Part shown: one piece after another, positions 2,532-58,233 of the stretch
Numbering within the stretch: the stretch's first letter is position 1
Layout of the letters: the number at the start of each line of letters is the position of its first letter
DNA from: Roseinatronobacter alkalisoli
GTDB lineage: Bacteria > Pseudomonadota > Alphaproteobacteria > Rhodobacterales > Rhodobacteraceae
Assembly (NCBI RefSeq): GCF_028745735.1
Contig: NZ_JAQZSM010000001.1
Coordinates: 1 to 64,000 of the forward strand
DNA length: 64,000 nucleotides
Reading direction: 5' to 3'
Notes under the pieces: generated by a model
The model's input: the letters and a program-made list of their open reading frames with translations, nothing else
Database searches by the model: none
What the model was told of the DNA's origin: nothing
Translations under genes and position numbers: made by a program

Positions 2532-3371
2532 ATGGCACTCAAGTCGTATAAGCCGACGACGCCGGGCCAGCGTGGGCTGGTTCTGATCGACCGTTCGGAG
2601 CTTTGGAAAGGTCGCCCTGTCAAATCCCTTACTGAGGGTCTGACGAAATCGGGCGGTCGGAACAACACCGGACGGATCACTGCACGCCGCATTGGCGGTG
2701 GCGCAAAGCGTCTTTATCGTATCGTGGATTTCAAGCGTAACAAGCTTGACGTTCCGGCTGTTGTTGAACGGATTGAATACGATCCCAACCGCACTGCCTT
2801 TATTGCGCTGATCAAATATGACGATGGCGAGCAGGCATATATCCTGGCACCGCAACGTCTGGCGATTGGTGACAAGGTGATCGCATCCGCGAAGGCCGAC
2901 ATCAAGCCGGGCAACGCAATGCCGTTTTCGGGCATGCCCATTGGTACGATCGTTCACAACATCGAAATGAAGCCGGGCAAGGGCGGCCAGATCGCACGCG
3001 CTGCGGGCACCTATGCACAGTTCGTCGGCCGTGATGGCGGCTACGCGCAGATCCGTCTGTCGTCGGGTGAGCTGCGTCTGGTGCGTCAGGAATGCTTTGC
3101 CACGGTTGGTGCCGTGTCGAACCCTGACAATTCGAACCAGAATTTCGGCAAGGCCGGTCGCACCCGTCATCAGGGCAAGCGTCCGTCGGTGCGTGGTGTT
3201 GCCATGAACCCGATCGATCACCCGCATGGTGGTGGTGAAGGGCGCACTTCAGGGGGCCGCACGCCGGTTACGCCCTGGGGTAAGGACACCAAGGGTCGCA
3301 AGACGCGCTCCAACAAGCAGACCGACAAGTATATTCTGCGGTCACGTCACGCGAAGAAGAAGGGTCGCTAA
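2532..3371 (+). CDS. rplB: 50S ribosomal protein L2
   Basis: L2 (279 residues) binds 23S rRNA and is needed for subunit association and the peptidyl-transferase centre. It begins [17 protein letters not shown]. Near its end it contains the [21 protein letters not shown] segment with the conserved histidine implicated in peptidyl transfer. The GGAAG upstream of the ATG at 2532 serves as ribosome-binding site. rpsS follows after three bases. Confidence 0.97.
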
Positions 3372-3374
3372 TCC

Positions 3375-3653
3375 ATGGCACGTTCAGTTTGGAAGGGCCC
3401 TTTCGTCGATGCTTACGTCTTGAAAAAGGCCGAGAAGTCGCGCGAATCGGGTCGCAATGAAGTTATCAAGATCTGGTCCCGCCGTTCCACCATTCTGCCC
3501 CAGTTCGTCGGGCTGACTTTTGGTGTATATAACGGCAAGAAGCACATTCCCGTGAATGTGACCGAGGACATGATCGGCCAGAAGTTCGGTGAATATTCAC
3601 CGACCCGTACCTATTACGGGCATGCGGCCGACAAAAAAGCGAAACGGAAGTAA
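3375..3653 (+). CDS. rpsS: 30S ribosomal protein S19
   Basis: S19 (92 residues) pairs with S13 in the 30S head and contacts t[15 protein letters not shown] at the start and [22 protein letters not shown] at the end match the family. It is tightly packed between rplB and rplV, with three bases on either side, so it should be translated from the same transcript. Confidence 0.97.
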
Positions 3654-3656
3654 GCC

Positions 3657-4037
3657 ATGGGTAAAGAGAAAAATCCGCGCCGCGTGGCCGAAAACGAGGC
3701 CATGGCCAAGGCGCGCATGCTGCGCACCTCGCCGCAGAAGCTGAACCTTGTTGCGGCAATGATCCGCGGTAAGGCGGTTGACAAGGCACTGAGCGATCTG
3801 ACCTTCTCCAAGAAGCGTATCGCTGCTGACGTCAAGAAATGTCTTCAGTCGGCGATTGCCAACGCTGAAAACAATCACGGTCTGGACGTCGATGAACTCG
3901 TCGTTGCGGAAGCCTGGGTCGGCAAGAACCTTGTGATGAAACGCGGTCGCCCGCGCGCACGGGGCCGCTTTGGCAAGATCATGAAGCCGTTTTCAGAGCT
4001 GACCATCACGGTTCGCCAGGTCGAGGAGCAAGCATAA
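3657..4037 (+). CDS. rplV: 50S ribosomal protein L22
   Basis: L22 (126 residues) lines the peptide exit tunnel; its beta-hairpin loop is a macrolide-resistance site in other bacteria. The core starts at [23 protein letters not shown], and the hairpin is in the [13 protein letters not shown] region near residues 92-105. The stop TAA shares its last base with the ATG of rpsC (TAATG). Confidence 0.96.
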
Positions 4038-4738
4038 TGGGTCAGAAGGTTAATCCGATCGGTATGCGCCTTCAGGTGAACCGCACCTGGGACAGCCGTT
4101 GGTTCGCTGAAAGCAAGGATTACGGCGATCTGTTGCTGGAGGATCTCCGGATCCGTGATTTCATCAAGGATGAATGCAAGGCAGCAGGCATCAGCCGCGT
4201 GATTATTGAACGTCCGCATAAGAAATGCCGCGTGACGATTCACACTGCACGTCCCGGCGTCATTATCGGCAAAAAAGGCGCCGATATTGAAACGCTGCGC
4301 AAGAAGCTTGCCAATCTGACATCGTCAGATCTGCATCTGAACATCGTTGAAATCCGCAAGCCGGAACTGGATGCACAATTGGTGGCAGAAAGCATCTGCC
4401 AGCAGCTGGAGCGTCGTGTCAGCTTCCGCCGTGCGATGAAACGGTCCGTGCAGAACGCAATGCGCATGGGTGCCCTGGGTATCCGTGTGAACCTGGCGGG
4501 TCGTCTTGGCGGTGCCGAGATTGCGCGGACGGAGTGGTACCGCGAAGGGCGCGTGCCGCTGCATACGCTGCGTGCAGATATTGACCACGCGCATTCCGAA
4601 GCCCACACGGCTTATGGCATCATCGGTGTGAAGGTCTGGATCTTCAAGGGTGAGATCATGGAACATGATCCGCAGGCCCGTGACCGCCGGCATCAGGAAC
4701 TTCAGGACAGCGGCGGCGCACAGCGCCCGCGTCGCTGA
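4037..4738 (+). CDS. rpsC: 30S ribosomal protein S3
   Basis: S3 (233 residues) forms part of the mRNA entry channel and its helicase. It begins [12 protein letters not shown]. It carries a KH domain with the GXXG-type loop in [17 protein letters not shown] (near 72-88) and the C-terminal [13 protein letters not shown] motif. Its start overlaps rplV by one base, implying coupled translation. Confidence 0.97.
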
Positions 4739-4759
4739 TCCGACTGAAGGAGAGACACC

Positions 4760-5173
4760 ATGTTGCAACCGAAACGGACCAAGTTCCGCAAACAGCACAA
4801 GGGCCGCATCAAAGGCGACGCAAAGGGCGGGTTTGACCTGAACTTTGGCAGCTATGGCCTGAAAGCTGTTGAGCCAGAACGCATTACCGCGCGCCAGATC
4901 GAAGCAGCGCGGCGTGCCATGACGCGCCACATGAAACGTCAGGGCCGTGTCTGGATCCGGATTTTCCCCGATGTCCCCGTCACCTCAAAGCCAACCGAAG
5001 TACGGATGGGTAAAGGTAAAGGGTCGGTGGATTTCTGGGCAGCGAAGGTCAAACCTGGCCGCGTGATGTTCGAAATCGACGGCGTGAACGACGCCATCGC
5101 CCGTGAAGCACTGCGTCTGGCGGCAATGAAGCTGCCGATCAAGACGCGCGTTGTGGTTCGCGAGGACTGGTAA
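4760..5173 (+). CDS. rplP: 50S ribosomal protein L16
   Basis: L16 (137 residues) stabilises A-site and P-site tRNA. It begins [16 protein letters not shown] and includes the [18 protein letters not shown] segment that carries the hydroxylated arginine in E. coli. An AAGGAGAGA site precedes the ATG. It is the last gene before the operon is interrupted: a GC-rich terminator lies eight bases after its stop, so rpmC cannot be assumed to share its transcript. Confidence 0.96.
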
Positions 5174-5180
5174 TACTGCT

Positions 5181-5212
5181 CGGGCGGGGTAAAACCCGCC
5201 CGTTCTCTTAAA
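5181..5212 (+). terminator. intrinsic terminator after rplP
   Basis: CGGGCGGG at 5181-5188 and CCCGCCCG at 5195-5202 form a perfect 8-bp GC stem around a 6-base loop, followed by TTCTCTT. This would end or attenuate the upstream S10 transcript in the middle of the usual S10-spc run. Confidence 0.7.
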
Positions 5213-5229
5213 ATATTCAGTTTTTTAAC

Positions 5230-5475
5230 TTACTCCGAAGCATCAGCCTCTTCGACAGCCATCAATAGCGCTTCCGCTAAATCCTGCACTTTGATTTGAC
5301 CTTCACATTTTGTTCCAGTGGGATCGCTGCACAGCTTTGCTTCTTGGATGATGACAGTACCACAGTAAACTTTTCCGCTGCCGGTGGCTACACATGTCAG
5401 CGCTTGAGATTCAGATGTGAAAGTAAACAAGCAGCAACAAGATACTCCGAAAACAAAACTGGTTTTTATGCTCAT
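5230..5475 (-). CDS. small secreted four-cysteine protein, unknown function
   Basis: This 81-residue reading frame lies on the strand opposite to the surrounding ribosomal genes. It has a plausible signal peptide (MSIKTS, hydrophobic core with CCC at 13-15, cleavage near SQA/LT at 25-26). The predicted mature part has four cysteines (28, 38, 49, 57), enough for two disulfides, and an acidic C-terminus. GGAGA lies seven bases before the ATG. Base composition is clearly more AT-rich than the neighbours. I recognise no family. Its placement between rplP and rpmC breaks the operon. Coding status rests on the signal peptide, cysteine pattern and ribosome-binding site. Confidence 0.6.
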   Translation of the reverse strand: MSIKTSFVFGVSCCCLFTFTSESQALTCVATGSGKVYCGTVIIQEAKLCSDPTGTKCEGQIKVQDLAEALLMAVEEADASE

Positions 5476-5578
5476 TGATGATCTCCATAATCACTAAGTT
5501 AGGTATAATAGCTTAACACGAAACGCGGATTTTCGGATAACTATTCATGTTATTTCCGACATCCCTTCTGCCGGGCTA

Positions 5579-5607
5579 TTGCATTGAGCTAGCTATACGC
5601 CTATACG
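5579..5607 (+). promoter_or_regulatory. possible promoter for the rpmC-rpmD segment
   Basis: TTGCAT at 5579-5584 and TATACG at 5602-5607 are separated by exactly 17 bases, a weak sigma-70-like pair. It lies between the reversed small gene and rpmC. The segment downstream of the rplP terminator needs its own promoter or read-through. Match quality is modest (3/6 and 4/6). Confidence 0.3.
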
Positions 5608-5690
5608 GCACGCTCATCCACCTCCGCCGGGAATCAGGGTGACCCTGTCACAGGGGGCTCTCCGGTGATTGTTGACTGAAGGAAATGGCC

Positions 5691-52749: not shown

Positions 52750-53670
52750 TCAGGTGGTGCTGGCGTCCGACACCGGAAACAGGCCCTGCAAGGCGTGCAT
52801 CATCGCGGTGCTTTCTGGGGTAGGCGGGGTATCAGCGCGAGTGCAAATGCCTACTGGCCCTGCCATCAGGCTGGTTCCCAGTTCCAGCGCGCATAAACTG
52901 CCCTGACGGATTTCATCTTCCACCACGCCTGCGGAAATGAACCAGACCGCATCTGACAGTTGCACCACCTTGCGCCCGAACGCCAGCGACACGCTTTCAA
53001 ACGCGGCGGGTTCATGCTGCAACCCGATGCTCAGCAGGTAGGACCGCACCGCCGGGGCAATGACCGCGCCGCTTGGCGGTAACAGCAGTGGAAATTTGCC
53101 CAAGCCGTCGGCAGTTGCGCCACTTCGGGTCAGTGGGTGGTCGGGGCGCACCACCAGCACCACCTGTTCTGCATAAAGCTGCTGAAACGCCAGCCCGGTC
53201 ATTTGTTCGGGGTTGGGCATGCGCCCGATCGTCAGGTCAAGCGATCCCTCGCGCAGTTGCGACAGCAGCAACCAGTTCGGCCCGGTGCTTACACGCAAGG
53301 TGCAGTTTGGCATATCCTGACGAAAGGCCAGTGCTGCGCGCGGAAATACATCTGTTGCGACGGTGGGCAGAATGCCGACCACCAGTCTGGTGACACGTTC
53401 AGGTGCGTTGCGCGCCAGGCTTTGGGCGCGTTCCAGCGCCAGCATCGCCCCGCCTGCATGTTGCTGGAACAGCTTGCCCGATGGTGTCAGAACCAAACGG
53501 CGGCCTGTGCGGTCGAACAGCGCGACGCCAAGAATGTCTTCCAACTCGCGAATGGTTTTTGACGCCGCAGGCTGCGACACATGCAAGGCGATTGCCGCAG
53601 CACTCAGGCTTTCCAGCCGAGCCGTTTCCAGAAAGCAGCGCAGATGGCGCAGGCGCAGGCGTGGGTCCAT
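52750..53670 (-). CDS. LysR-family regulator, PcaQ-like
   Basis: This 306-residue regulator has an N-terminal HTH (RLRHLRCFLETARLESLSAAAIALHVSQPAASKTIRELEDILGVALFDRTGRRLVLTPSG) and a ligand-binding domain. The pattern RLRHL...QPAASKTIRELEDILGV resembles PcaQ, the protocatechuate-pathway regulator of alphaproteobacteria. No pca genes are present here. It could instead regulate the SDR/dehydrogenase pair, with which it converges across six bases. The effector is unknown. Confidence 0.85.
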   Translation of the reverse strand: MDPRLRLRHLRCFLETARLESLSAAAIALHVSQPAASKTIRELEDILGVALFDRTGRRLVLTPSGKLFQQHAGGAMLALERAQSLARNAPERVTRLVVGILPTVATDVFPRAALAFRQDMPNCTLRVSTGPNWLLLSQLREGSLDLTIGRMPNPEQMTGLAFQQLYAEQVVLVVRPDHPLTRSGATADGLGKFPLLLPPSGAVIAPAVRSYLLSIGLQHEPAAFESVSLAFGRKVVQLSDAVWFISAGVVEDEIRQGSLCALELGTSLMAGPVGICTRADTPPTPESTAMMHALQGLFPVSDASTT

Positions 53671-54117
53671 CGGGTGCCCTTTGGGTTATGGCGTTGTACT
53701 CGCAGGTGTTTAGCGTGGTTTCAGCGGTTTTGCAAAATGCCGGAAGATCATGCAGGCACCGGTATAGGCCCTGCAGGCCACGGAAAACATCGCCCCATGT
53801 TTCCACATGCCGGTTCGGTCAGGCCGTGAGCATTCGGTATGTATCGGGGCCATGGGATACCCGACCGGAAACCGGGTAGCCTTGGTCGTTGAAGGATCGT
53901 TTCGTGCCATGTGTCGCGCAATGTCGCAGAAATAGAGAATAAGTTTTATTGATATAAATCAGATGCTTGGAATTATTTATGGGGCAAATTCCGGTTGTCC
54001 CGGATAAGGGCGTTCAAAAATACTTGCTGGATATAGGTAAGTATGCAAATATATTTGCATCGTGACTATAAGAAGCACGATAAAATTGCACGCACGTCAA
54101 ACTCGCAGGGAGATGAC
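53671..54117. other. 447-base spacer, AT-rich towards the ABC operon
   Basis: No gene is supported here; overlapping short frames lack ribosome-binding sites and consistent codon use. The left half is GC-rich and holds the LysR promoter. From about 53930 it becomes strongly AT-rich, and it ends with the 18-bp palindrome at 54043-54060 before the ABC operon. Confidence 0.6.
54043..54060. promoter_or_regulatory. 18-bp perfect palindrome upstream of the polar amino-acid ABC operon
   Basis: ATGCAAATATATTTGCAT is its own reverse complement. It lies 57 bases before the binding-protein ATG, in a promoter-like AT-rich stretch (TTGCTG about 17 bases upstream of its centre). It is a strong operator candidate, probably for the RpiR regulator encoded at the end of this operon (inference). 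Confidence 0.65.
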
Positions 54118-54858
54118 ATGAAAAACATTCTTCGCATTACCGCCGCTGCGGTATTCGCCCTTGGTGCAACCGCCGCGACAGCGGATAAGCTGGTTGTCGC
54201 CACCGATACCGCCTTTGTCCCGTTTGAATTTATGCAGGACGGCGAATATGTCGGTTTCGATATCGACATGTGGACGATGATCGCCGCGGAACTCGATCTG
54301 GAATTCGACCTGCGCCCGATGGATTTCAACGGCATTATTCCGGGCCTTCAGACCGGACAGGTTGATGTTGCGCTGGCGGGTATCACCATTCGTGATGACC
54401 GTGCCGAAGTTATCGACTTCTCGGACGGGTATTATGACAGTGGGTTCCTGATCATGGTGCCTGCGGACAGTGATGTCGAAAGCTCCGCTGATCTGGCCGG
54501 GAAAACGCTGGCTGTGCGCACCGGTACGTCGGCGTCAGATTATGCGCGCGAGAATTTCACCGACACTGAACTGCGCCTGTTCCCCAATATCGACAACGCC
54601 TATCTGGAATTGCGCACTGGTCGCGTTGACGCCGCCATGCATGACACCCCCAATGTGTTGTATTACATCGCCACCGCTGGCGACGGGCAGGTCAAGGCCG
54701 TGGGCGAACAGATGATGGCACATCAATATGGCATCGGTTTTCCCAAAGGGTCGGATCTGGTGGAACCGGTCAATCAGGTGCTGGCGAATATGCGCGCAGA
54801 TGGCCGCTATGACGAAATCTACATGAAATGGTTTGGCACCACACCGCCCGGCAACTGA
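54118..54858 (+). CDS. polar amino-acid ABC transporter binding protein (GlnH-like)
   Basis: This 246-residue periplasmic protein has a signal peptide ([20 protein letters not shown], cleavage after TA at ~22) and the type II fold of family 3 solute-binding proteins: [55 protein letters not shown] and [22 protein letters not shown] precedes the ATG; the frame opens earlier at 54043 within the palindrome. It leads a five-gene run. A hairpin follows its stop. Confidence 0.92.
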
Positions 54859-54884
54859 TCTTGCACATATCATGAAACTGGCGG

Positions 54885-54908
54885 GGCGGGACCGGCACTG
54901 GTCCTGCC
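54885..54908 (+). terminator. intercistronic hairpin after the GlnH-like gene
   Basis: GGCGGGACC at 54885-54893 pairs with GGTCCTGCC at 54900-54908, with one G-U pair, around GGCACT. No T-tract follows. The placement copies the hairpin behind the liv-type binding-protein gene and may favour excess binding protein. Confidence 0.6.
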
Positions 54909-54941
54909 GACACTGGCGCGCAAATCACGCGGGGGCGGATA

Positions 54942-55598
54942 ATGGAAGTTAACTGGCTGATCATCTGGGATTTCATCCCGCAACTTCTGAAAGGGGCGCA
55001 GGTCACGGTTCATATTACCGTTGTCGGCCTGCTGGGCGGTGTCATCCTTGGCGCTATAGCCGGGTTGATGCGGGCCTATGGCAATTCCGTGATAAATGCG
55101 ATTGCCTTTGTCTATATCGAAGTTATCCGCGGCACGCCGATTGTCGTGCAGGTGATGTTTCTGTATTTCGCGCTGCCGGTTCTGGCCTCGATCCGCATTG
55201 ACCCGATGACCACTGCGGTTCTGGCGATTGTCATCAATGCAGGTGCCTATATCGCCGAAATCGTGCGCGGGGCGGTGCTGTCCATTTCCAAAGGGCTGAG
55301 CGAGGCAGGATTGGCCATCGGTCTGCCGCGCTGGAAGGTCATTCGCTATATTGTCGGGCCGCTGGCATTCCGCCGCCTGATTCCGCCCCTTGGCAACCAG
55401 TTTATTGTCAGCCTGAAGGACACGTCCTTGTTCATTGTCATCGGTGTGGGTGAGTTGACGCGCACCGGGCAGGAAATCATGGCGGCCAATTTCCGCGCGG
55501 TCGAAATATGGACAGCCGTTGCGGTGATGTATCTGATCATGACCGGTGTGCTGTCGCTGATGCTGCGGATGATCGAAAAACGCATGAGGATCCTATGA
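54942..55598 (+). CDS. polar amino-acid ABC permease (GlnP-like)
   Basis: This 218-residue inner-membrane permease has five or so helices and the coupling loop [35 protein letters not shown]; its N-terminus [30 protein letters not shown] is the HisM/GlnP pattern. There is only one permease gene, so it may form a homodimer. Its stop overlaps the ATPase start as ATGA. Confidence 0.92.
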
Positions 55599-56326
55599 CC
55601 GATGCAATCATTACATTCCGCAGCGTGTCCAAGCATTTTGGCCAGCTGAAGGTGCTGGATGAAGTTGATCTGGACATCCACAAGGGTGAAGTGGTCGTGC
55701 TGATCGGCCCTTCGGGGTCGGGGAAATCCACACTTCTGCGCTGCATCAACGGGTTGGAACAAATCACCGGCGGTGATCTGGTCGTCAACGGCATGAGCGT
55801 TCTGGGCGGCAACAAGGTTCTGCGCGAAATCCGGCAGGAAGCGGGCATGGTGTTCCAGCAGTTCAATCTGTTTCCGCAGATGACCGCCCTGCAGAATGTG
55901 GCCTTCGGTCCGCAGCAGGTGCGCGGCATGTCCGCGCGTCAGGCCCGCGAACTGGCCCGCGAATTGCTGGCCAAAGTGGGGCTGGCCGACAAGGCGGATC
56001 ATGAACCCGCTGAATTGTCGGGCGGGCAACAGCAGCGCGTGGCTATTGCGCGTGCGCTGGCGATCAAGCCAAAGGTGATGCTGTTTGATGAACCGACATC
56101 GGCACTGGACCCCGAACTGAAGCAGGAGGTGCTGAATGTCATGCGCGCGCTGGCGGCCGAAGGCATGACAATGGTGGTGGTGACCCATGAAATGTGCTTT
56201 GCCAAGCAAGTCGGCACAAGGCTGATCTTCATGGAACACGGCAAGATCGCAGTTGATGGCCGCCCGGGTGACGTGATTGACACGCCGCCCAATGACCGGA
56301 TGAAGGATTTCCTGCAGCATGTCTGA
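55595..56326 (+). CDS. polar amino-acid ABC ATPase (GlnQ-like)
   Basis: This 243-residue ATPase carries GPSGSGKST (Walker A), the [24 protein letters not shown]-loop, [16 protein letters not shown] (signature), and [13 protein letters not shown] (Walker B). GAGGA (55586-55590) precedes the ATG at 55595. The frame opens at 55508, but that part lies in the permease gene. It overlaps the C45 hydrolase gene by eight bases. Confidence 0.95.
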
Positions 56327-57347
56327 AGATGCGCCGTCCGAATTGCGCCGGGTGCGTATGGCCGGAGCACCGCATGATATAGGCCATGCACTGGGCCGCG
56401 CTGGCCGTGATGCGGTGCATGATGTGTTGCGGCCGCTGGATTATTGGGTGGCCGTGAATAGCCCTGCCCATGACCATGTAGTTGCGCGCATGGCCCTGCG
56501 CACGAAGGCCCTGTTTCCATGGATATTTGAAGAATTACAAGGGCTTGCTGATGGGCTTGGGTTGCCATTCGCGCAGGTCATGGCCTGGAACTGCCGTGGT
56601 GATCTGATGTCGAATGTGCCCGATGGCTGCACCACCCTTCAGTTTCCCGGTGATGTGCCTGTCATTGCCCATAACGAAGACGGGCTGCCGGATTTCCGGG
56701 GGCACGTCCTGCTGGTTGATGCCGCGCCGCTGGATGCGCCGGATTTCACGGCCTTGTGCTACCCCGGTTCAATTCCGGGCCATACATTTTCCGTCACCGG
56801 CGCGGGGCTGGTGCAGGCGGTCAATAACCTGCGCCTGCGCGACGTTCGCCCGCAGATCCCGCGCATGGTGCTTGGTCGTGCCGTGCTGGCGTGTCGCTCC
56901 GTCCGCGCGGCGATTGACCTGCTGGCGCGCGAAAACAACAGCGGCGGGTTTCATTTTACGCTGGCGCAAGCGGGGGAAGGGGTGGTCCATAGCGTTGAAT
57001 TCGGGGGTGGTGGCATGGTGCATCGGCAGATCGATACACCGTCTGCACATGCCAATCACGCGCTGCATCTTGATCACGCACAGGGGCAGATCGTTACCCA
57101 ATCATCGGCTGACAGGCAGCGCCGCGTGACTGACCTGATTGACGCGGGCGCGCGGAATGTGCTGGCCATGTTACGCGACACAGGCGAGCAGGGACTGCCT
57201 GTTCATCGCTGCCAGCCTGATGACCCGGATCATGAAAACACCCTTGCCACGGCTATCATTCACGTCGAAAAGGGTGGTTTAAGCTGGAAAGTCTATGACC
57301 AAAAGTCCACAGGGCCAGTCCATGCCGGATCAGACATCGCCAGATAG
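56319..57347 (+). CDS. C45-family self-processing Ntn hydrolase/acyltransferase
   Basis: The 342-residue protein resembles acyl-CoA:6-aminopenicillanate acyltransferase and carcinine hydrolase (Tan). The predicted autoproteolytic site is G103-C104 in [11 protein letters not shown]; Cys104 would become the N-terminal nucleophile of the beta subunit. HNEDG at 118-122 is the second motif. Such enzymes hydrolyse or form amide bonds of beta-alanyl amines, penicillins or N-acyl amines. It shares eight bases with the ATPase gene and 53 with the RpiR gene, so it is part of the importer operon. No signal peptide: it is expected to act in the cytoplasm on the imported compound. Confidence 0.85.
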
Positions 57348-58233
57348 CGTGCCGCAGACAGTTGCGGGGCTGCGCGAGATGATGCTGCGCATCGCCAAGG
57401 GCGAAGGGGCGATTACCCTTGGCCCCAAAGCGCGAGAGGCGCTGGCCCGTATCCTGGACCTGCAGGGCGACCCGGCGTTGCTGTCAATCACCACGCTGGC
57501 CGACAAACTGGGGGTCAACCCGTCCACGCTGACGCGGCTGTCGCGCAATCTGGGGTATTCCGGTTTTGGCGCGTTCCAGCAGGTGTTGCTGAATGCGTCC
57601 ATGGCGCCGCCGGGGTCGTTCTACAGCCGGCAGGCGGAAACGGCATTGCGTGGCGGGGACGGGACCGGTCTGAATGGCGTGGCCGCATTGTGTCGGGAAA
57701 GTCAGGCCAATATCGACCGGTTTCTGGATACGTGCAATCAAAGCCAGTTTCGCCATGCCACCGAACTTATTGCGGGCGCGCCGCGTGTCATGGTTTATGG
57801 GATACGGCAGTTTCACGCATTCGCCAGTTTTCTGGTCTATGGGCTGCGGATGATCCGGTCAGATGTGCATCTGCTGGATTCGAACGCGCTGGGCGTGGCC
57901 GAAGGCATTGCCTCCATGTCACCGCAGGATGTGCTGATCATTTCCAGCTGCGCCCCCTATTCGCGGCAGGTTGTCGACGTGGCGCGCGCGGCGGTGGACA
58001 AGCCGGTTTCGGTTGTGGCGATTACCGACCGCGCGGATTCACCCCTGATCATGGCGTCCAAGGCGGCATTGCTGGTCCCGCATGAAACCAGTTTCCTGTC
58101 GAATTCGCTGTCAACTTTCATTCTGGCGGCAGAATGCCTGATCAATGGTTGCGCAGCCGCCGACCCCGACACCGCCAAGGCTGCCTTGGCGGAACGGGAC
58201 CGGATGATTGGCCGCCTTGGCATTGAAATGTAA
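57295..58233 (+). CDS. MurR/RpiR-family regulator
   Basis: This 312-residue regulator has an N-terminal RpiR-type HTH (LSITTLADKLGVNPSTLTRLSRNLGYSGFGAFQQVLL) and a C-terminal SIS domain (~135-270) that usually senses a phosphosugar but may bind other ligands. The start at 57295 has GGAAAG six bases upstream. An ATG at 57322 is in frame, and either choice overlaps the C45 gene, by 53 or 26 bases. It closes the operon and probably controls it. Confidence 0.9.
   Translation: MTKSPQGQSMPDQTSPDSVPQTVAGLREMMLRIAKGEGAITLGPKAREALARILDLQGDPALLSITTLADKLGVNPSTLTRLSRNLGYSGFGAFQQVLLNASMAPPGSFYSRQAETALRGGDGTGLNGVAALCRESQANIDRFLDTCNQSQFRHATELIAGAPRVMVYGIRQFHAFASFLVYGLRMIRSDVHLLDSNALGVAEGIASMSPQDVLIISSCAPYSRQVVDVARAAVDKPVSVVAITDRADSPLIMASKAALLVPHETSFLSNSLSTFILAAECLINGCAAADPDTAKAALAERDRMIGRLGIEM

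Follow-up and report, generated by a model that had tools for sequence, protein, structure and literature searches.

The stretch of DNA analysed here (the window) comprises 64,000 nucleotides of Roseinatronobacter alkalisoli (contig NZ_JAQZSM010000001.1, assembly GCF_028745735.1). It contains a GlnHPQ-type importer, a C45 N-terminal nucleophile (Ntn) hydrolase and an RpiR regulator arranged as a single overlapping operon behind a perfect 18-bp palindrome. With moderate confidence, this operon is interpreted as a self-regulated unit for amide catabolism. GlnHPQ would import a glutamine-like zwitterionic amide, which the C45 enzyme, having cleaved itself before Cys104 in the cytosol, would hydrolyse. 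The amine released would pass to a class III aminotransferase of the PRK07483 type, encoded in the same cluster in many relatives and at another locus in the host genome. RpiR would repress the operon from tandem palindromic sites overlapping the likely promoter, and an inducer would bind to its SIS domain. The computed basis for this interpretation consists of the genes and their families, the predicted fold, the conserved gene order, the conserved sites and the presence of partner genes.

The five genes and the palindrome were found, by examination of open reading frames (ORFs) and of the sequence, where a preliminary sequence-only reading had placed them (Table 1). The overlaps were also as it had described, with 8 bases shared between glnQ and the C45 gene and 53 bases between the C45 and RpiR genes if the latter starts at 57295, or 26 bases if it starts at 57322; glnP and glnQ overlap by 4 bases. 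The ORF which starts within the palindrome, at 54043, is an upstream extension of glnH, and the match to the GlnH model begins at residue 1 when translation is taken from 54118.

That the genes form one functional unit had also been proposed in the sequence-only reading, with a gene order conserved in no relatives named among the observations that would argue against it. Conservation was searched for and found, supporting the proposal. The set examined contained 52 related loci, some of which end at contig ends so that all counts are lower bounds. GlnHPQ and C45 are contiguous in 21 loci and RpiR follows in 14, all with GlnHPQ, so that all five genes are present in 14 of the 52. This layout occurs in Alpha- and Gammaproteobacteria, the 14 loci including Paracoccus, Marivita, Rhodovulum, Amaricoccus, Natronohydrobacter, Rhizobium, Halomonas and Spiribacter; further cases are L080, L081 and L129 and the plasmids L062, L065 and L137. 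In a tree of C45 sequences the window groups with other five-gene rows (support 100/99), and the five-gene label requires 5 changes on the tree as against 14 on average in shuffles, a result helped by near-copies. When C45 distances were compared with those of the other products, r was 0.76 for the binding protein, 0.81 for the permease and 0.89 for the ATPase (32 rows each) and 0.92 for RpiR (20 rows), with a Mantel p of 0.0005 for each, although shared descent alone would also yield such correlation. The C45 gene is rare. At 1e-5 the family yielded 8 genomes with the gene out of 295, the match being strong in six, and at 1e-40 the class yielded 6 out of 385; both counts include the window's own. 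The host genome has a single match to the C45 Pfam model.

Assignment of the hydrolase to the C45 family is well founded, as it matches C45_proenzyme NF040521 at 227.9 bits (cut-off 85) and Pfam AAT PF03417 at 114.8 bits (cut-off 23.2), both above the curated cut-offs. The motifs D102-G103-C104-T-T and H118-N-E-D are present and, by reading of the sequence rather than by a predictor, no export signal is visible. An alignment of 66 rows, in which one genome appears twice (L007 and L028) and L035 contributes two genes, showed Cys104, His118, Glu120, Asp121, Asn246 and Arg266 to be invariant. Position 103 is Gly in 63 rows and Ala in 3, a pattern compatible with autoproteolysis before Cys104. Structure prediction, with an input of 47 aligned sequences that included the window's, gave a mean pLDDT of 94.2. 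The sequence-only reading had suggested modelling the enzyme against isopenicillin N acyltransferase (IAT), and a Foldseek search did return the IAT precursor, 2x1c, as the nearest solved fold (TM 0.81, 352 alignment columns), followed by mature IAT (TM about 0.8), acid ceramidase and NAAA. The window enzyme is thus predicted to have an Ntn fold with a Cys nucleophile and Asp and Asn partners (C104, D121 and N246). The earlier proposal of a cytosolic enzyme with an autoprocessing fold is supported.

IAT and NAAA are autocleaving Ntn enzymes. Acid ceramidase is likewise described as one (PMC5915598). By analogy with its family, the C45 enzyme of the window would be expected to cleave itself and to hydrolyse an amide. 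It shares with IAT (MEROPS C45, Penicillium) the fold, a Cys nucleophile following Gly, and Asp and Asn at equivalent places. However, the two are only about 18% identical, and R182 and H212, present in every one of the 66 bacterial rows, align with Ser and Ala of IAT. Acyl exchange on 6-APA with acyl-CoA is the mark of IAT proper, and such acyl transfer from CoA would not be expected of the window enzyme. Separately, L035 carries two tandem C45 genes (3359-5688), 40% and 35% identical to that of the window, behind one GlnHPQ set.

The importer bears on the nature of the substrate. GlnH, GlnP and GlnQ of the window exceed the NCBIfam equivalog cut-offs for the three subunits of the GlnHPQ glutamine transporter (377.8, 358.2 and 418.6 bits against 303, 303 and 379), and the N-terminal stretch of GlnH reads like a signal peptide. 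The ligand pocket was compared in 31 C45-linked binding proteins, the window's included and the duplicate L079 and the E. coli reference left out. Eight pocket residues of the E. coli glutamine-binding protein (GlnBP), D10, F13, F50, G68, T70, R75, H156 and D157, are kept in all 31. Position 115 has Lys in 26 of the proteins and Arg in five, namely the window and four relatives, and position 119 has Ser in 24 and Ala in the other seven, in place of the G119 of E. coli. The importer therefore resembles E. coli GlnHPQ in passing all three equivalog models and in nearly keeping its pocket, but differs from it at G119 throughout, at K115 in some rows, and in being linked in an operon to a hydrolase. 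The Asp and Arg are presumably the residues which hold the free amino-acid head group in GlnBP. If so, a ligand with such a head group and a glutamine-like side chain is suggested, as no more than a lead given that binding proteins can behave unexpectedly, and the near-complete glutamine pocket favours glutamine, N-substituted glutamines or an isomer and disfavours N-acyl amino acids, one of the substrates named in the sequence-only reading.

A plain reading of such a pocket is that the operon supplies nitrogen, importing L-glutamine itself for a glutaminase-like C45 enzyme to convert to glutamate and ammonia. The equivalog scores of the three transporter genes and the pocket residues kept, with K115 either K or R, all favour this, on the assumed roles of the residues. 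Nevertheless it is considered unlikely, because G119 is replaced in every binding protein compared, the gene is so rare in the class, and the class III aminotransferase and BKACE partners described next would not be needed for glutamine.

These partners are found near many of the relatives. The account of a unit given in the sequence-only reading stood, but it had missed them, as it had the second palindromic site and the exchange of the importer for a Liv-type transporter considered below. Public annotation has genes for BKACE, another RpiR and a class III aminotransferase beside the importer in Shinella and Rhizobium, and for BKACE and the aminotransferase in Paracoccus pantotrophus. RpiR and the aminotransferase are joined in Pantoea and Phytobacter by a CMD-like gene with weak Pfam matches (20.0 and 16.4 bits, cut-off 23). 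In two Burkholderia records the aminotransferase lies directly behind C45, the genes overlapping by 4 bases in L134 and standing 3 bases apart in L135. Three plasmid records were read by simple ORF calling, which missed some transporter genes. An aminotransferase of at least 60% identity is present within 7 kb at 17 of the 52 loci, that of L030 being a fragment; L012 and L014 are left out of this count, as theirs were matched only via L012's own query and are 45% identical to the others. BKACE was found at 9 of the loci, CMD at 7 and an upstream RpiR at 13. In the host genome, another contig encodes an aminotransferase that shares 74% identity with the Rhizobium NXC14 enzyme. Its gene has a CMD gene (38.5 bits, cut-off 23) on one side and, on the other, an RpiR gene whose SIS (47.1 bits) and HTH_6 (35.9 bits) matches both exceed their cut-offs. 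We infer that this unlinked aminotransferase works in the same pathway. The best matches of the aminotransferase among solved structures are various amine, gamma-aminobutyrate (GABA) and unnamed class III transaminases.

The BKACE of two relatives tested gave a Pfam match far above cut-off but lay under the cut-offs of the four NCBIfam models matched. As in KCE and other BKACE (DUF849) proteins, a pair of His residues, which we take to bind the metal, is kept in the aligned rows of at least 41% identity. At the position of KCE Glu14, by contrast, all 15 such rows from C45 clusters have Arg. Glu14 of KCE is described as holding the 5-amino group of the substrate (PMC10470551), and BKACE groups with negatively charged substrates are reported (PMC4922564). 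Taken together, these points suggest that the beta-keto acid handled by the cluster BKACE probably has an anionic far end.

This bears on the proposal, made in the sequence-only reading among others, that the C45 enzyme cleaves beta-alanyl amines as insect Tan does. A plasmid relative, H65, is named as a member of the carcinine hydrolase/isopenicillin-N N-acyltransferase family, and beta-alanine is a substrate of class III aminotransferases. A BKACE step would not be expected after beta-alanine, however, and the Arg at the Glu14 place speaks for an anionic far end, so that this form of the amide pathway appears improbable. A beta-amino acid amide such as beta-glutamine, an isomer of glutamine, would be only a little less unlikely. 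After import by the GlnH-type system and hydrolysis by C45 as an amidase, the aminotransferase would turn beta-glutamate into 3-oxoglutarate, which the Arg-type BKACE would convert to malonyl-CoA and acetoacetate. This route would be in keeping with the one or two changes in the glutamine pocket, and with the presence of an amidohydrolase, of a step acting on a beta-amino acid and of a BKACE suited to anionic substrates. To our knowledge, the C45 enzyme would also be the first of its family to act on an unsubstituted amide. A search of the host genome for a close BKACE found only distant relatives (27% identity, L075; 25%, L072) and partial rows (L071 and L077), so that the BKACE step of the route would need replacing there. 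Beta-glutamine is recorded as a solute of the halophilic methanogen Methanohalophilus (PMC1224877), and its use by the bacteria considered here is conjecture.

The leading, if still tentative, form of the amide pathway has as its substrate an N5-substituted glutamine, i.e. a gamma-glutamyl amide, which C45 would split to glutamate and an amine. The glutamine-like pocket with its place for a free amino-acid head group is consistent with this, as is IAT being the closest solved fold. The reaction would resemble that of IAT, which removes the L-alpha-aminoadipyl side chain of isopenicillin N, a chain longer than glutamyl by one carbon. In addition, the C45 clusters L024, L025 and L030 encode a C26 peptidase that is a relative of gamma-glutamyl-GABA hydrolase, scoring 95.6 bits where the cut-off is 266. 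These clusters have a different transporter, however, and we know of no gamma-glutamyl activity in this C45 subfamily.

The different transporter is of the Liv (branched-chain) type, and it replaces the importer in two C45 lineages nested among the five-gene rows, L012/L014 and L024/L025/L030. Both the aminotransferase (83%) and BKACE remain in L025. In L012 and L014 the C45 enzyme is 56% identical to that of the window, and the aminotransferase is the more distant one (45%). As the aminotransferase stays near while the transporter changes, C45 and the aminotransferase look like the core of the system and the importer like its changeable part. The L012 and L014 clusters also contain a histone-deacetylase-like protein and relatives of DgcN and DgcA, which in L012 score 229 bits (cut-off 480) and 191 bits (cut-off 400) respectively. 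DgcN and DgcA are enzymes of N-acetyl-D-glutamate racemisation. The known D-glutamate route was not found among the window's neighbouring genes, and the L012 relatives are under the equivalog cut-offs (dgcN is covered in PMC12363236). These accessory proteins are what would favour the C45 enzyme as a deacylase of N-acyl amino acids. This form is rated a little below the gamma-glutamyl amide and is doubtful, since the clusters concerned have the Liv-type transporter while the window binding protein keeps the Asp and Arg assumed to hold a free amino-acid head group. The substrates are accordingly ranked as N5-substituted glutamine, N-acyl amino acid, glutamine, beta-amino acid amide and beta-alanyl amine, and even the first of these is no better than tentative. 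As a separate observation, positions 4678-9008 of L012 and the matching stretch of L014 possibly encode a racemisation route via an N-acyl intermediate for another amino acid.

The final component is the regulator and its putative sites. The window RpiR protein has the HTH_6 and SIS domains of the RpiR/MurR family, SIS at 39 bits (cut-off 25) and HTH_6 at 28.2 bits, 0.1 bit under the Pfam cut-off of 28.3. The palindrome has no second copy in the window even with 3 mismatches allowed, 0.02 being expected from shuffles, and no other exact copy in the genome. An inverted-repeat scan showed that it recurs before glnH of relatives, and for this reason the idea that it is a chance occurrence or a mere hairpin was rejected. 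Sites were scored over 250 bp as matches to the 12 bases of TGCAAA-N3-5-TTTGCA, with p from 200 shuffles. A site of at least 11/12 precedes glnH in 15 of 22 scanned operons with a 3' RpiR gene and in 1 of 16 without. In the first set, 13 of 17 operons with RpiR scored 11-12 (p 0.005-0.03 each), L015 scored 10 and three rhizobial operons 9, whereas none of 12 without RpiR reached 11, the highest being L063 (10, p 0.01). Three added operons with RpiR scored 12, 11 and 9. In the wider scan, two rhizobial operons with RpiR (L136 and L137) both scored 9, and those without scored 7 (L130), 9 (L134 and L135) and 11 (L138, p 0.015). Conservation before glnH in most non-rhizobial operons with a 3' RpiR gene supports the suggestion of the sequence-only reading that the palindrome is a control site, although two Paracoccus operons without that gene also carry a full or partial site; going by this co-occurrence, which has exceptions in both directions, RpiR may be the protein that acts there.

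A probable second, degenerate site lies upstream of the first. In 12 of 17 operons a score of at least 9 was found 29-32 bp upstream of the best site, and the mean best score at offset -30 was 7.7, compared with 3.8 (sd 1.05) over all offsets, with offset -12 also high (7.3). One promoter-like hexamer of the window falls inside the palindrome, which is weak evidence hinting at repression, as 5 promoter-like sites were found in the stretch and 2.8 would be expected in shuffles. In four clusters (L062, L013, L033 and L046) the sites are between divergent aminotransferase and glnH genes, so that both could be under one regulator. The idea that the palindrome also governs the unlinked aminotransferase triad was rejected, there being no site of at least 10/12 before the triad in the host genome or in L011.

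Several observations weigh against the proposed amide pathway and its regulation. The window's own cluster has neither the aminotransferase nor BKACE, and of the 21 loci with GlnHPQ and C45, 9 have no close aminotransferase within 7 kb; L010, the nearest relative, is one of these. The aminotransferase is widespread, being present in 160 of 295 genomes of the family and in all 8 with C45, hence its unlinked presence in the host says little. Both full BKACE relatives of the host lack the Arg, the distant BKACE rows (27%) of L012 and L014 have Ile at the Glu14 place, and L021 has a fragment only. The GlnHPQ set is absent at 31 of the 52 C45 loci, some of them cut by contig ends, and the neighbourhood scan found no aminotransferase, BKACE or GlnHPQ neighbour for distant C45 members (e.g. 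L042, L047-L049, L054-L058 and L061). As to the sites, their pattern was derived from the window and its relatives, which makes the counts descriptive rather than an independent test. Seven of the 22 RpiR operons fall under 11/12 (L015 at 10; five rhizobial operons, which do not have the conserved site, and L129 at 9 each), and the Paracoccus operons L138 and L063 have the site without a 3' RpiR gene. The latter two are plasmid-borne, with transposition genes behind C45 in L138, and loss of the regulator from them is possible. The distribution of the site clearly tracks lineage no less than it tracks the RpiR gene. A strict pairing of the two was rejected on these exceptions, and confidence in the interpretation as a whole was lowered slightly.

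In a C45 clade of four rows (L028, L029, L031 and L066; 47-48% identical, support 99/95) the gene comes immediately after an RND efflux pump rather than an importer; the L066 copy is on a conjugative Thioclava plasmid. This arrangement also weighs against the proposed pathway. Together with the relation to IAT, this raises the idea of a detoxification unit directed against an amide-type antibiotic. The RND-linked clade is, however, outside the operon's own clade and need not share its function, an importer works in the wrong direction for defence, and catabolic partners are present. Detoxification is thus the most improbable of the explanations considered.

Each part of the operon belongs to a known family, and it is the combination which is uncharacterised. 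A comparable plan, a polar amino acid importer with an intracellular enzyme, is that of the ectoine cluster. The sequence-only reading knew of no described system with exactly this layout. This holds for function, as a search of open-licence PMC gave no account of the layout's function among the matches listed, but the layout itself is annotated in public plasmids and appears as DNA flanking aphA1. In the results section of PMC12670165, a Klebsiella michiganensis region contains a C45 peptidase gene, glnQ, glnP, glnH, yciW, aspC and rpiR, the aspC being taken here as the class III aminotransferase. There it is described only as flanking DNA with no function proposed and, unlike in the window, RpiR does not follow C45. 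C45 relatives were found in 206 of 72,556 plasmid records, 103 of these from Escherichia. Among the rows listed, nearly all from Escherichia, Salmonella and Shigella plasmids align over residues 66-327 only. They probably represent the aphA1-flanking piece of PMC12670165.

Bacterial C45 Ntn hydrolases are widely annotated, and no natural substrate was assigned among the matches listed, short of full-text reading. The operon links one C45 subfamily to a transporter, to enzymes acting downstream and to a regulator for which there are candidate sites. As this C45 is linked to its own binding protein, its substrate can be sought by a ligand screen of that protein. The operon would also explain DNA which has travelled with the common kanamycin resistance gene aphA1 (PMC12670165).

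Table 1. Features of the operon and its upstream region, numbered from the first base of the window.
Feature	Position	Strand	Basis
Probable second degenerate site TTCAAAAATACTTGCT, 9/12 bases, 31 bp upstream of main site	54013..54028		offset analysis
Promoter-like hexamers TGGATA-16-TATATT, second hexamer inside palindrome	54028..54055	+	weak evidence
Perfect 18-bp palindrome ATGCAAATATATTTGCAT, main putative operator TGCAAA-N4-TTTGCA	54043..54060		sequence; recurs in relatives
glnH, GlnH-type periplasmic binding protein (SBP_bac_3)	54118..54858	+	profile match
glnP, GlnP-type permease	54942..55598	+	profile match
glnQ, GlnQ-type ATPase	55595..56326	+	profile match
C45 family Ntn hydrolase, predicted autocleavage before Cys104 (codon 56628-56630)	56319..57347	+	profile, alignment, predicted fold
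RpiR/MurR-family regulator (HTH_6 + SIS)	57295 or 57322 (in-frame ATG)..58233	+	profile match

Upstream of the operon, on the opposite strand, is a PcaQ-like LysR gene. This regulator, at 52750-53670, scored 321 bits against a PcaQ cut-off of 303.8, and an acyl-CoA dehydrogenase gene adjoins it. Downstream, converging genes encode a class I aminotransferase, a GNAT protein and a mercaptopyruvate sulfurtransferase; among the loci compared, the same three were seen in L010 only.

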